A stretch of DNA of 38,249 nucleotides from an uncultured Bacilli bacterium (GTDB lineage: Bacteria; Bacillota_I; Bacilli_A; RF39; UBA660), in contig CANRPB010000005.1 in the NCBI GenBank assembly GCA_947632415.1, positions 1-38,249 on the forward strand. Reading direction: 5' to 3'. A model generated the notes under the pieces. That model searched no databases and had not been told where the DNA came from. It saw only the letters and a list, made by a program, of their open reading frames with translations. How positions within the stretch are numbered: position 1 is the stretch's first letter; every line of letters starts with the position of its first letter. The position numbers and the translations under genes were made by a program. Below are positions 1,363 through 12,927 of this stretch, in pieces.

Positions 1363-1602
1363 ATGAAACTAGTAGGGAAAGTGCGAAACTATCTTTTAGA
1401 TGAGGAGTTTAACATGAGGGTATTAAAGAGTAGAGTAAATGTTTGTAATTACGATTCTATTGGTTATTTTGATAGTGATATGGTGATTATTAATTATATG
1501 GATGGTGAAGTTAAGATTAAGGGTGAGAATTTGGTTGTGTCGAAGTTACTTAGTAATGAGGTTTTAATAAATGGTGATATAAAAAATATCGAAATGAGGT
1601 AA
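1363..1602 (+). CDS. yqfC: YqfC/YabP-family sporulation protein
   Basis: A 79-residue protein of the YabP/YqfC family, small beta-rich proteins made during sporulation in Bacillus and clostridia. Recognisable parts are the central segment with VIINYMDGEVKIKGENLVV and the C-terminal VLINGDIKNIEMR, which align with the family pattern of an acidic strand, a GxxLxV motif and a terminal GxIxxIE. The ATG at 1363 is preceded by AGGTGG, 4 nt from the start codon. yqfD begins 3 nt after the stop, so the two are translationally linked as in Bacillus. The presence of this pair suggests the lineage sporulates or descends from a spore former; it does not prove that this strain sporulates. Confidence 0.85.
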   Translation: MKLVGKVRNYLLDEEFNMRVLKSRVNVCNYDSIGYFDSDMVIINYMDGEVKIKGENLVVSKLLSNEVLINGDIKNIEMR

Positions 1603-7290: not shown

Positions 7291-7319
7291 TTTACAAATA
7301 ATTACACCAATAGTATAAT
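7291..7319 (+). promoter_or_regulatory. Promoter of the T-box/glyS transcript
   Basis: TTTACA at 7291-7296 and TATAAT at 7314-7319 with an exact 17 bp spacer. This is one of the best consensus promoters in the window. The predicted RNA start is about 7326, which fixes the length of the T-box leader at about 137 nt. Confidence 0.8.
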
Positions 7320-7325
7320 GATAGT

Positions 7326-7462
7326 GATATTGGGATGCGATGACTGGCTTGGAAACCATGAGCAATACATTTAAAGTTGATTCTTTTAGAATAAGTAAGG
7401 TGGAACCGCGGGGTAACTCGTCCTTAATTGTCTAGAAGATTTTTTTTGGAAAGGATGATTTT
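7326..7462 (+). promoter_or_regulatory. T-box leader of glycyl-tRNA synthetase, probably translational
   Basis: The T-box core AAGGTGGAACCGCGGGG lies at 7397-7413 and its partner CGTCCTT at 7419-7425, so the antiterminator/antisequestrator arm AAGG/CCTT is present. A possible short stem I pairs 7328-7332 with 7363-7367. Candidate Gly specifier codons are GGC at 7346-7348 or GGA at 7351-7353; I cannot decide between them. No terminator hairpin precedes the T-run at 7440-7447. Instead 7418-7425 is complementary to 7451-7458 (8 bp, one G-U), which covers the Shine-Dalgarno AAGGA of glyS. Uncharged tRNA-Gly would therefore expose the ribosome binding site. The T-box itself is certain; the translational mode is inferred. 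Confidence 0.88.
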
Positions 7463-8833
7463 ATGGAAAAAATATCGATGGAAAAGATGGCTAATTTGTG
7501 CAAACAATATGGTTTTATTTATCAAGGAAGTGAGATTTATGATGGTCTTGCGAATACTTGGGATTATGGTCCATTGGGTAGTAGATTAAAGAATAATATC
7601 AAGGATGCTTGGAGAAAGAAATTTATTCAAGAAAATAAAAATGCTTATGAGTTGGATGCTGGTATTTTGATGCATCCTAGGGTTTGGGAGGCTTCTGGTC
7701 ATGTTGGTGGTTTTTCTGATCCTTTAATTGATTGTAAAGAGTGTAAGACGAGGCATAGAGTTGATCATTTAATTGAAGACTTTGATGCTAGTGTTGTTGC
7801 TGATAAGATGACGGATGCTGAAATGATGGATTTTGTTAGGAAAAATAGTATTCCTTGTCCTAAGTGTGGTAAGTCTAATTATACTGATATTCGCGAGTTT
7901 AATTTAATGTTTGAGACTTATCGTGGTGTTACTAAGGATTCTAAGAATGTTGTTTATTTAAGACCTGAGAATGCGCAGGGTGAGTATGTTAATTTTCTTA
8001 ATGTTCAAAGGAGTATGCGTGCGAAGTTACCTTTTGCAATAGGACAGATTGGTAAGGCTTTTAGAAATGAGATTACACCAGGAAACTTTACGTTTAGGAC
8101 TATTGAATTTGAACAGATGGAATTTCAGACTTTTTGTAAAAAAGGAATGGATGAAGAGATATATAGTCATTATAAGGATTATGCTAAGAGGTATTTTAAT
8201 TATTTAGGTTTGTCTAGTGAAAATTTAAGGTATCATGATCATGATAAATTAGCGCATTATGCTAAAGAAGCATGTGATATTGAGTATAAATTTCCTTTTG
8301 GTTGGGGAGAGATTAATGGTACTCACAATCGTACTGATTTTGATTTGTCTAGGCATCAGGAGTTTAGCGGTAAGTCTTTAGAGTATTTAGATCCAGATAC
8401 TAATGAAAAGTATATTCCATATATTGTTGAGTCAACGGTTGGTTGTGATAGGACAGTATTAGCGGTTTTATTTGAAAGTTATTGTGAAGAAGTATTAGAG
8501 GATGGTACAACTAGAGAAGTATTGAAGTTAAAGCCTTTTTTGGCTCCTTATAAAGTGGCTGTTTTACCTCTTATGAAGAAGTTTCATAGTTCTAAGGCAT
8601 TAGAGATTTATGATTTATTGAGTAAGGAATTTATGACTTCCTATGATGAGTCTGGTAATATTGGTAAGAGGTATAGAAGACAGGATGTAATTGGAACACC
8701 TTATTGTGTTACAGTTGATGAGGATACGTTAAATTGTAATACAGTTACTGTAAGGGATAGGGATACTATGAAACAAGTAACTTTGAATATTGATGAGTTG
8801 GTTGATTATATTAAAGAGAGAGTAAAGTTTTAG
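7463..8833 (+). CDS. glyS: Glycyl-tRNA synthetase, alpha2 single-chain type
   Basis: A class II synthetase charging tRNA-Gly. The 456-residue chain is the homodimeric (eukaryote/archaea/Mycoplasma-like) form rather than the two-subunit GlyQ/GlyS of Bacillus subtilis. Motif 1 lies in the region of LANTWDYGPLG; motif 2 covers FRNEITPGNFTFRTIEFEQM; motif 3 is GCDRTVLAVL. Cysteine pairs CKEC and CPKCG form the inserted zinc-binding part. The anticodon-binding domain begins near LAPYKVAVLPL and ends with VTVRDRDTMKQ. The ATG at 7463 lies 8 nt after the GGAAAGGA ribosome binding site that the T-box can mask. A terminator follows. It sits where Bacillus has glyQS, after recO. Confidence 0.97.
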   Translation: MEKISMEKMANLCKQYGFIYQGSEIYDGLANTWDYGPLGSRLKNNIKDAWRKKFIQENKNAYELDAGILMHPRVWEASGHVGGFSDPLIDCKECKTRHRVDHLIEDFDASVVADKMTDAEMMDFVRKNSIPCPKCGKSNYTDIREFNLMFETYRGVTKDSKNVVYLRPENAQGEYVNFLNVQRSMRAKLPFAIGQIGKAFRNEITPGNFTFRTIEFEQMEFQTFCKKGMDEEIYSHYKDYAKRYFNYLGLSSENLRYHDHDKLAHYAKEACDIEYKFPFGWGEINGTHNRTDFDLSRHQEFSGKSLEYLDPDTNEKYIPYIVESTVGCDRTVLAVLFESYCEEVLEDGTTREVLKLKPFLAPYKVAVLPLMKKFHSSKALEIYDLLSKEFMTSYDESGNIGKRYRRQDVIGTPYCVTVDEDTLNCNTVTVRDRDTMKQVTLNIDELVDYIKERVKF

Positions 8834-9006: not shown

Positions 9007-9033
9007 ACACAGATGTTTATAGGGGGAGATAGT

Positions 9034-10800
9034 ATGTTAAAAAAGGTTAGTTTATTTATGTTTTTGGCATTTTGCGCTTTATTTATATCGGTAGATGGTG
9101 TAAGTGCTGAGCAATGGGTATATCAAAAGATGGCTTTAACTTCTCATCATTTAATGAGTTACAATAATGATAGAGATGCTTTTGGTAGAGCTAATCTTCA
9201 TATAATTGAGGATGTAGATACAGCAAGTAGTTATAGTGCTGGTGATGGAGAAACGAGATATGCTTATTGTGCTGATGTTGATACAGGTGGATACAATGGA
9301 ACATATGTAAGATCTTTAATTAATAATAGTGACTATAATGGCAATGGAGCTAAAATGAGAGCAATTTTAAGTAGTTCTTATCCTTTTGTTACGTTAAATG
9401 AGATGAAGGCGTTATACAGGGAGCAAATGGGTGAAAATTTGTATAATGCTAATGCGATAAAAGATTTGACATATCAAGAGGCAATATATGTTTCGCAAGC
9501 TGCTGTTTGGACAATAAGTAATCCTAATAGAACTCCATTTACTTATTCACATAATATGGAAGATTCGGAAATGTTAAGTTTGACACATGGAAGAATTGGT
9601 TTAACTTGTGATTGGTCAGTAACAGATCCAAGTGCTGAAAATTATTGCTACCCATCAGTAGAAGCTACAAAATATGAAAAAAATGAAGCGGTTGTAGGTA
9701 AAAGAGTAAATGCTATGGTTGAGTGGTTATTATCACTTGATGGTAGTGAAATTGATGGAAGTGGAAATGTTAATGTCAATGTTGTTTCTAAGGAGTTAAC
9801 TTATGATAATAGCAAGGACAAGAATATAGCAATAGTAAAATTTAAAGTTAGTTTGGATAATTTAACAGGTGTTGATTCATTGTCTGAAACAAATGTTAAA
9901 GTAACTGATGCTAATTCTCAAGTAATTAATACTGATTATAAAGATGGTGTTTATACAATTACACAGGAGTATGATTCTAATATTAAAAATGTTAAGTTTG
10001 ATATTTCTGTCGATTATAGTTCAAGTTATGGAAAGAAAGCCTATTTATACAAATCAAGTGGACAACAAGATTTAGTAAGTGTTGAAAATAGTAGTGTTAC
10101 TAAGAATGCTAAAGCTAATGTTGAGATTGATAATGATGGAGGCGATGCTGAGTTTTCTAAGGTTGATATAACTAATCAGCAGGAACTTCCAGGGGCAACA
10201 TTAAGAGTTTTGGATGCTAATGGAAATTTAATTGAAGAGTGGGTTTCTACAAATGAAAAGCATATCATAAAAAATCTTAAAGAGGGTAAATATACTTTAG
10301 TTGAAATTATTGCTCCAGAAGGATATGTAACGGCTAATTCTGTTGAGTTTGAGGTAAAAAAAGGTGAAGTTACACAAGTTACTATGATTGATGATGTTAC
10401 TAAAGTTTTAATATCTAAGAAAGATTTTACGACTGAAGAAGAGGTTGTGGGTGCTAAACTTCAAATAAAAGACAAAGATGGTAATGTTATTTATGAATGG
10501 ATTTCGGGAACAGAACCATACTATATTGAAAAGTTACCTGTGGGTAAATATACATTAGTTGAAACAGTATATCCAAATGGCTATGAAGAGGGAATGATTG
10601 TTGATGGCGTTCTTGTATCAGAATATGATTTTGAAGTAGCTAATACTGGAGAAATTCAAACTATTGATGTATATAATAGAGCTAGTGTAATTACTGATGT
10701 ACCAAATACTGGAATTCATACATCTATTACTTTAGGAACTATTTTAATTATAACAGGTAGTTTAGTAGTATTTATTTCAAGAAAAAAGAGATTAAATTAA
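9034..10800 (+). CDS. Thioester-domain surface adhesin with two CnaB domains and sortase signal
   Basis: A 588-residue, probably wall-anchored protein. Residues 1-25 are a signal peptide ending VSA. A thioester domain follows: Cys79 in RYAYCADVD and Gln155 in YVSQAAVW match the Cys and the (S/T)QxA Gln that form the internal thioester in adhesins such as SfbI, which bond covalently to host proteins. After a beta-rich middle come two SpaA/CnaB-like domains: about 370-455 (Lys376, Glu424, Asp453/454) and about 457-550 (Lys462/463, Glu510, Asn548), with the residues for intramolecular isopeptide bonds. The C-terminus has VPNTG at 556-560, a hydrophobic helix and RKKRLN, an LPXTG-type sorting signal. 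I start at ATG 9034 because AGGGGGAG lies just upstream; the in-frame ATG 21 bp earlier has no ribosome binding site. The sortase is not in this window. Monocistronic. Confidence 0.88.
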   Translation: MLKKVSLFMFLAFCALFISVDGVSAEQWVYQKMALTSHHLMSYNNDRDAFGRANLHIIEDVDTASSYSAGDGETRYAYCADVDTGGYNGTYVRSLINNSDYNGNGAKMRAILSSSYPFVTLNEMKALYREQMGENLYNANAIKDLTYQEAIYVSQAAVWTISNPNRTPFTYSHNMEDSEMLSLTHGRIGLTCDWSVTDPSAENYCYPSVEATKYEKNEAVVGKRVNAMVEWLLSLDGSEIDGSGNVNVNVVSKELTYDNSKDKNIAIVKFKVSLDNLTGVDSLSETNVKVTDANSQVINTDYKDGVYTITQEYDSNIKNVKFDISVDYSSSYGKKAYLYKSSGQQDLVSVENSSVTKNAKANVEIDNDGGDAEFSKVDITNQQELPGATLRVLDANGNLIEEWVSTNEKHIIKNLKEGKYTLVEIIAPEGYVTANSVEFEVKKGEVTQVTMIDDVTKVLISKKDFTTEEEVVGAKLQIKDKDGNVIYEWISGTEPYYIEKLPVGKYTLVETVYPNGYEEGMIVDGVLVSEYDFEVANTGEIQTIDVYNRASVITDVPNTGIHTSITLGTILIITGSLVVFISRKKRLN

Positions 10801-10920: not shown

Positions 10921-10941
10921 CATGCTAGGAGGGTGTTATTT

Positions 10942-12927
10942 ATGAGTATTAAAAAATATTGGTTACATTCTTTTATTTGTATACTATTATTTTTAGTAAA
11001 TATAAATGTTTGTTATGGTTTAGATGGTATTGTTAATGGTACTAGTATTCATGTTAGAAGTGGTGCTGGGACGAGTTATGAAAGTTTAGGCAAAGTTGAT
11101 TTGCCATCGGTTTATACATTGCTTGATGAAAATAAGATATCTCCAACTGATGGAACTAGTGCTAATTGTTCTTATTGGTATAAAATATCATATAATAATC
11201 AGGATGGTTATATTTGTAGTATTTATCTAACGATTGTTTCTGATAAGGGAACAGCAGGGGGAACAGGGGATTTTGAGGCTGATTTGGTTCAGTTTCCTGA
11301 TAGTTACAAAGAAAGTTTACGTCAGTTACATAGTCTTTATCCTAATGCTACCTTCACTGCTTTTAATACGGGTTTAGATTGGCAAACGGTTGTAGATAAT
11401 GAGAATTATATAAAGTCAGGCTCTCCTAAAAATAGTGCTAGAAGTTTGATGCAGACTAAATATGATGGTTATAAATCAACTAATAGTATTGTCTATAATT
11501 GGGCAACTAATATTTGGAATACTAATATATCTGGTGGTGGATCATCGTGGTTTGCGGCTCATGAAGATGTTATATCATATTACTTGGATCCTAGAAATTT
11601 CTTAACTTATAATAGTGTTTTTATGTTTTTAAATCATGGATATTCTACTAATATCAATTATAATGAAGGTGCGATTGATAATATATTAAAAGGTAGTTTT
11701 ATGTCGGGTAATATGACTAATGATAATGTTCATAGTTTTGCTAATGCTTTTATTGATGCTGGTAGACAATCGGGTATTAGTCCATATTATTTAGCGGCTC
11801 GTGTTATTCAAGAGATAGGACGTAGTTCAACTAGGAGTAGTTATGTTAATGGTTCTAGTGGTTATTATAATTACTATAATATTGATGCTTCGGGAAATGA
11901 TCATTTGGCTAATGCTTTGAATCGGGCTAAGAATGAAGGCTGGGATGATGATTATAAGGCGATAGTAGGAGGTGCTAAGTTTATTGCTGATGGTTATGTA
12001 AGTACTGGTCAAAGCACTCTTTATTTAGAAAAATGGGATGTTGTTGATGGTGGAAATGGTTTTTATAGTCATCAGTACATGCAGAATATTCAGGCTCCTG
12101 TGAGTGAGGCTAATACTTTATATAATACATATCTACAAAATGATTTAATGACAGGAAATATGGAATTTTTAATACCTGTTTATACGGGTATGACAGCAGG
12201 TACTAAGTTACCAAATACAGGTAATCCTAATAATTATTTAAGGGAAGTAACTATTAATGGTTATGTTATTAATGGTTTTGATATTAATCAACTTGAGTAT
12301 AATTATAATGTTTCTTCTGTAACAAATCAGGTAGAAATAGGGGCTAATAAAATAGCTAATACATCAAGTGTTAATGGAATTGGAACTATTGAAATAAAAG
12401 ATAATAGTTATACTCATAGTATTACTGTTACAGCTGAAAATGGGAATGTAAGAACCTACAAGATTAATTTTACTAAGGATGATGATAAGCCAATTTCAAT
12501 CAGTGATATTATTAATTCTAAGGGTTATGTAAGTGATGGTGTGTATTTATCAGGAATAAATGTTGGAACTAGCGCTGATAGCCTTGCTGATAATTTAAAA
12601 TCAGGAATATCTAATATAAGTATAAGTATAACTAATAGTGCTGGTAGTATAAAGACAACTGATACAGTGGCAACAGGTGATAAAGTTACTATTACAAGTG
12701 GTAATGAAACTAAGACATATACTGTTATTATCTATGGCGATTTGAATGGTGATGGAAAAATTGCATCAAGTGATTATGTTTTTGTAAAAAATTATATAAT
12801 GGGTACTAAAGTTTTATTATCTGAGCAAATAAAAGCCGGTGATATAAATAAAGATGGTAGAAGCACATCAAGTGATTATGTACTTATAAAAAATCATATA
12901 ATGGGAACGAATATTATTAAACAATAA
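10942..12927 (+). CDS. Secreted SH3 / beta-N-acetylglucosaminidase with cadherin-like domain and type I dockerin
   Basis: A 661-residue secreted protein. The signal peptide is about residues 1-26. An SH3b domain follows (about 27-95, IHVRSGAGTSYESLG). The catalytic part has the pattern of GH73-like endo-beta-N-acetylglucosaminidases that cut peptidoglycan: FPDSYKESLRQLHSLYPN, YYLDPRNFL and SPYYLAARVIQEIG, with Glu291 the likely catalytic acid. Then comes a cadherin-like beta-sandwich (about 433-515). The C-terminus, from residue 600, holds two dockerin repeats, DLNGDGKIASSD and DINKDGRSTSSD, each with the Asp/Asn/Asp calcium ligands and Ser-Ser at the cohesin-recognition positions. I start at ATG 10942 (AGGAGGG upstream); a GTG 9 nt earlier overlaps that site. 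The gene behind, 11 bp away, is in the same operon. The muralytic activity is predicted, not shown. Confidence 0.87.
   Translation: MSIKKYWLHSFICILLFLVNINVCYGLDGIVNGTSIHVRSGAGTSYESLGKVDLPSVYTLLDENKISPTDGTSANCSYWYKISYNNQDGYICSIYLTIVSDKGTAGGTGDFEADLVQFPDSYKESLRQLHSLYPNATFTAFNTGLDWQTVVDNENYIKSGSPKNSARSLMQTKYDGYKSTNSIVYNWATNIWNTNISGGGSSWFAAHEDVISYYLDPRNFLTYNSVFMFLNHGYSTNINYNEGAIDNILKGSFMSGNMTNDNVHSFANAFIDAGRQSGISPYYLAARVIQEIGRSSTRSSYVNGSSGYYNYYNIDASGNDHLANALNRAKNEGWDDDYKAIVGGAKFIADGYVSTGQSTLYLEKWDVVDGGNGFYSHQYMQNIQAPVSEANTLYNTYLQNDLMTGNMEFLIPVYTGMTAGTKLPNTGNPNNYLREVTINGYVINGFDINQLEYNYNVSSVTNQVEIGANKIANTSSVNGIGTIEIKDNSYTHSITVTAENGNVRTYKINFTKDDDKPISISDIINSKGYVSDGVYLSGINVGTSADSLADNLKSGISNISISITNSAGSIKTTDTVATGDKVTITSGNETKTYTVIIYGDLNGDGKIASSDYVFVKNYIMGTKVLLSEQIKAGDINKDGRSTSSDYVLIKNHIMGTNIIKQ

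Follow-up and report, generated by a model that had tools for sequence, protein, structure and literature searches.

The window analysed here, a stretch of 38,249 nucleotides from the genome of an uncultured Bacilli bacterium (contig CANRPB010000005.1), contains an open reading frame, glyS (7463-8833, forward strand like all features of the locus described below), that encodes a single-chain glycyl-tRNA synthetase (GlyRS) of 456 amino acids; a homology search of family genomes recovered homologues with 56-77% identity across the whole family. Upstream of glyS, a -35 hexamer (TTTACA, 7291-7296) and a -10 hexamer (TATAAT, 7314-7319), separated by a 17-nt spacer, place the expected transcript start near position 7326, in agreement with an earlier reading of this DNA from the sequence alone. 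Judged from its sequence, the leader between this start and glyS (7326-7462) is a T-box that combines an ultrashort stem I, a GGA specifier and a kink-turn and has no stem II. The host genome (1.39 Mb in 119 contigs) carries genes for tRNA-Gly(UCC) and tRNA-Gly(GCC), both with the 3' end UCCA (U73), and seven other T-boxes with spans of 183-209 nt were found in it with Rfam. A tRNA with the anticodon CTA ('tRNA-Pyl') that was reported by ARAGORN elsewhere in this genome (L322, 1004-1081) is probably a false positive. Downstream of glyS, inspection by eye pointed to two large secreted-looking proteins, the first (9013-10800) with a pilin-like membrane anchor at its C terminus and the second (10933-12927) containing SH3-like and dockerin-like parts.

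The T-box core and an ultrashort stem I

The core of the leader is canonical, as the sequence-only reading had recognized, with all of its elements present between 7396 and 7426. The antiterminator helix A1 (UAAGG, 7396-7400, paired with 7422-7426; 98.3% of alignment cells paired) and helix A2 (7408-7412/7417-7421, with a terminal G-U; 95.2% of cells paired, and double changes in four of its five pairs) covary and flank the T-box bulge UGGAACC (7401-7407), which conforms to the UGGN-ACC consensus and is complementary to the UCCA end of the cognate tRNA-Gly. The same bulge, TGGAACC in DNA, occurs in 114 of 115 distinct leaders of this type, and UGGA or UGGG is present in all of them. The match to the Rfam T-box family RF00230 (38 bits, E 4e-7) is far below the gathering score of 93 bits, a search threshold and not a biological feature. 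The low score is due to the long stem I that the model presupposes; the core itself aligns canonically.

Stem I comprises only about 40 nt (7328-7367) and consists of a base (7328-7330/7365-7367; 68.0% of cells paired), a first helix (7336-7338/7362-7364; 96.7%), a kink-turn-like motif formed by GAUGA (7339-7343) and GA (7360-7361), a second helix (7345-7347/7356-7358; 90.0%) and an apical loop (7348-7355), with covariation in all three pairs of each of the three paired elements. The loop contains the glycine codon GGA (7351-7353), in keeping with the regulated gene glyS, followed by a purine, A7354. Among the 115 leaders the triplet is GGA in 110, GGC in four and GGU in one, and the next base is A in every case; since only these three variants are found at this loop position, GGA 7351-7353 was assigned as the specifier. 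A nearby GGC (7346-7348), also considered, sits in the stem and off the conserved loop position. The predominance of GGA contrasts with the glycine T-boxes collected in TBDB, in which 77% of specifiers are GGC and 17% are GGA (PMC7778990).

No stem II that could dock on stem I was found, the linker being too short for it both in the window (12 nt, 7368-7379) and in 114 relatives (13-25 nt up to GATTC). The purine string RRRxG expected before stem III is represented in the window by AGUUG, which is only a partial fit. Likewise, a long stem I with a distal double T-loop platform was found neither here nor in the 115 relatives, in line with the compact T-box without a distal platform that had been proposed earlier. 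A promoter-like pair of hexamers lies upstream of the kink-turn motif at a matching distance in 107 of 115 relatives, compared to 32 of 115 shuffled sequences, and the distance to the motif is 12-28 nt (42 nt in one case). Because this pair is so close to the kink-turn motif, a longer, hidden upstream part of stem I can be ruled out.

A terminator that encloses the antiterminator

The core is preceded by stem III (7380-7392, paired as 7380-7384/7388-7392 and followed by AA), an element of the predicted ON state that is paired in 87% of cells and has 13 double-change cells versus 3.9 +/- 1.7 in shuffled controls. Overlapping with it, the strand U7382-A7390 (UCUUUUAGA) forms 9 bp with U7431-A7439 (UCUAGAAGA), which lies directly 5' of a U8 tract (7440-7447), and this helix can be extended towards A1 by 7392-7394/7428-7430. 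The resulting intrinsic terminator follows the antiterminator and appears in the unconstrained minimum free energy (MFE) fold of 7326-7447 with a mean pair probability of 0.94. The total MFE of the leader was no better than that of shuffled sequences (z -0.07), and the evidence for the terminator is therefore comparative rather than based on the energy of a single sequence. Since the whole antiterminator sits in its loop, the hairpin is easily overlooked by a search for local hairpins, and a consensus scan of the window did not pick up the enclosing terminator.

Evidence for the helix was obtained by swap tests, in which each leader's strand was paired either with the partner from the same leader or with that from a different one. 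For 58 leaders with a non-consensus stem III, pairing with the own partner yielded -11.8 kcal/mol compared to -7.1 +/- 0.29 kcal/mol after swapping, and none of 500 swaps was as good. Because helix score had played a part in selecting this set, the test was repeated with 48 leaders chosen by the kink-turn and T-box core alone, using the longest T-run, with a similar outcome (own -10.99 versus swapped -7.71 +/- 0.25 kcal/mol; none of 500 swaps as good). In these 48 unselected relatives the longest T-run after the helix comprises 3-8 nt, with a median of 6. Moreover, double changes occur in all eight counted pairs of the terminator in an alignment of 91 sequences, amounting to 140 cells versus 28 +/- 4.4 in shuffled and at most 44 in slid controls, and the covariation score was 0.66 versus 0.20 in shuffled and at most 0.15 in slid controls; the covariance model alignment, having been fitted to the OFF structure, is biased in its favour, a bias of which the swap tests are free.

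In T-boxes with transcriptional control as described so far, the terminator takes its 5' strand from the 3' strands of A1 and A2 (PMC7583486). No terminator of this kind, which would exclude the antiterminator, was found in the window; the pairing partners are the stem III strand and 7431-7439, while A1 and A2 are kept. A classic terminator formed through CGUCC pairing before the U-run was likewise sought and not seen in the glyS leaders; it occurs elsewhere in the host genome, in the T-boxes L001 and L006. In the predicted structure, the terminator excludes stem III yet leaves both A1 and A2 intact. The glycine codon in the apical loop, the match between the bulge and UCCA and the terminator formed by the stem III strand at U8 can all be read from the primary sequence and its comparison among relatives.

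Complementarity to the Shine-Dalgarno sequence

In the sequence-only reading no terminator hairpin had been seen before the T-run, and control had tentatively been assigned to translation, with the 3' strand of the antiterminator (7418-7425) proposed to pair with 7451-7458. In such a translational T-box, this pairing would sequester the Shine-Dalgarno sequence when the tRNA is charged. The 8-bp complementarity does exist, with one G-U pair, and it overlaps the Shine-Dalgarno sequence AAGGA (7451-7455); in addition, translational T-boxes typically have a short stem I (PMC7583486). However, the two strands show no coevolution: pairing energies were the same with own and swapped partners (-7.05 versus -7.03 +/- 0.10 kcal/mol), 195 of 500 swaps being as good, and the 8-bp run is found only in the window among 101 leaders. 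The predicted mean pair probability of this helix is 0.003, the antiterminator strand is paired in both predicted states, and 12 of 113 leaders have their first ATG more than 60 nt (70-218 nt) past the U-run, although the ATG picked by rule may be wrong in a few of these. Together with the covarying terminator adjoining U8, these results render control by translation very improbable. The earlier reading had itself named a conserved terminator in relatives and a lack of covariation between the two strands as observations that would speak against it, and both were made. The match in the window is explained by the general complementarity of GUCCUU to the Shine-Dalgarno sequence, and no conserved Shine-Dalgarno sequestration, as in the actinobacterial ileS T-box, was found in the leaders.

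Control at both levels, with the terminator acting first and the Shine-Dalgarno sequence of escaping transcripts being sequestered in addition in this species, appears scarcely more probable. Although the window ranks fourth among 101 leaders in predicted Shine-Dalgarno pairing energy, both A1 and A2, which are part of both predicted states, would have to open for this pairing, and it is not conserved.

Stem III and the proposed switch

The leader is most likely a glycyl T-box, reduced to an ultrashort stem I and devoid of stem II, through which glyS is controlled by transcription attenuation; the switch would lie between stem III and the terminator. Uncharged tRNA-Gly would bridge the specifier and the T-box bulge, and the purine string of stem III may dock on the duplex of tRNA and bulge. 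Since stem III shares nucleotides with the terminator's 5' strand, its folding would block the terminator, and stem III, kept folded by the uncharged tRNA, would allow the polymerase to read on. Charged tRNA would be unable to dock, so that the downstream strand could invade stem III, the long hairpin would close around the antiterminator and transcription would stop. In contrast to canonical T-boxes, the OFF state would take apart stem III and not the antiterminator. We infer this coupling of stem III to the terminator by analogy: in characterized T-boxes the discriminator needs stem III to bind the 3' end of the tRNA (PMC7583486), and the purines flanking stem III dock on the duplex of tRNA and bulge (PMC7583486; PMC7778990). 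When no tRNA is bound, the OFF fold is predicted to be favoured over the ON fold by about 9 kcal/mol, so that either the tRNA has to make a large contribution or the outcome is set kinetically.

At least three relatives retain the terminator but appear to have no stem III, namely the glyS T-boxes L031 (1368-1482), L043 (91-201) and L237 (approximately 1495-1600, minus strand). The stem III switch leaves these leaders unexplained, which gives some room to a geometric version of the same RNA, in which a tRNA bridging stem I and the bulge would exclude the helix that moves stem I away. The far stronger covariation of the terminator (140 cells) than of stem III (13 cells) is also consistent with such a coupling, but the pairing of stem III in most cells of the alignment and its indispensability in characterized T-boxes argue against it, and we regard the geometric version as rather unlikely compared with the switch through stem III. 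In both L043 and L237 the bulge is altered to UGGAACA.

Relatives and distribution

The 115 leaders share the short stem I, the apical GGN followed by A and the linker too short for stem II, and all belong to one uncultured Bacilli family. They were collected from GlyRS homologues of family genomes with their upstream stretches and by a pattern scan of GenBank genomes, in which the records bore titles such as 'uncultured Bacilli', 'Tenericutes' or 'Erysipelotrichaceae' MAGs and some chance matches in unrelated phyla were dropped. Of 241 genomes of the order, well over a hundred scored above 70 bits with a model built from the leaders, and every one of these came from the one family. Occurrence beyond this family was considered and rejected: the best outside score in a sample of the class was 51.6 bits, and of the outside matches inspected (L240-L244), L240 has no T-box core readable by pattern, while in L241-L244 the stretch preceding the core is longer, with L241, L243 and L244 classified as classic.

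Three genomes of the family contain glyS T-boxes with a long stem I (L030, L075 and L239). They have the base, the kink-turn motif, the GGA specifier and the core in common with the ultrashort form, and L075 and L239 also share its enclosing terminator, but in all three stem I continues beyond the specifier loop into a distal region. In a GlyRS tree the deepest split has short forms on either side, and the three long forms sit at scattered tips, a pattern from which a single origin of the short form could not be derived; the scatter of the long forms could be due to deletion above the specifier loop, to regain or to exchange.

The enclosing layout is not confined to glyS. Among the seven other T-boxes of the host genome, four have an enclosing terminator (L002, L003, L004 and L007), two are of the classic CGUCC type and one is ambiguous; a sample of the family yielded 13 enclosing, nine classic and one ambiguous, including the long glyS T-boxes L075 and L239. 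In other families of the class, 29 of 32 classified loci are classic and three enclosing, two of these three being doubtful. When the swap test was applied to 17 non-glycine T-boxes from the host genome and the family, selected for having the enclosing layout, own partners gave -10.6 compared to -6.1 +/- 0.53 for swapped ones, with none of 1000 swaps as good. T-boxes that combine a non-glycine specificity, a long stem I and an enclosing terminator from the stem III strand comprise L002, L003, L004, L007, L236, L238, L247, L250 and others, and the genes behind such T-boxes include pheS, serS and aspS.

Comparison with known T-boxes

Similar to the transcriptional glyQS T-box of Bacillus and Geobacillus (RF00230), the glyS leader has a glycine specifier, no stem II, a flexible linker, a UGGA bulge, an A1/A2 antiterminator, stem III and transcription termination. 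In contrast to glyQS, its stem I has no distal platform for the tRNA elbow and carries the specifier in the apical loop, and the stem III strand forms a terminator that encloses A1 and A2. The actinobacterial ileS T-box (translational; class II in TBDB) likewise has an ultrashort stem I with an apical-loop specifier and no contact to the tRNA elbow, whereas it possesses a stem II and acts on translation. In a published review, stem II is described as essential where stem I is truncated, and transcriptional T-boxes as generally dependent on the elbow platform for fast tRNA binding (PMC7583486). Since truncated stem I sequences are found among the class I matches in TBDB (PMC7778990), a short stem I outside Actinobacteria is not new in itself. 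In the literature searched, we found no description of a glycine T-box that has neither platform nor stem II, and none of a terminator with the antiterminator inside it.

On balance, we lean towards a minimal transcriptional T-box that senses tRNA-Gly by codon and 3' end alone and switches by protecting stem III from an enclosing terminator. If true, this would represent an undescribed logic of the expression platform, common, within one Bacilli family, to T-boxes for several amino acids. The enclosing terminator would make stem III, lately recognized as a part of the sensor, a candidate switching element as well, which can be tested by mutation. Because the family apparently has neither platform nor stem II, the two known means by which T-boxes hold the tRNA body or stabilize the codon pairing, yet a conserved terminator, it offers a small natural RNA (about 120 nt) in which the minimal requirements of a T-box can be explored.

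A further observation concerns gene order. In eight loci (L018, L036, L037, L085, L143, L158, L160 and L177) the first gene of the T-box-led transcript encodes a protein with an M-K-x-F-I-x-S-S-S-R-like start, and in some of the eight glyS comes after that first gene.
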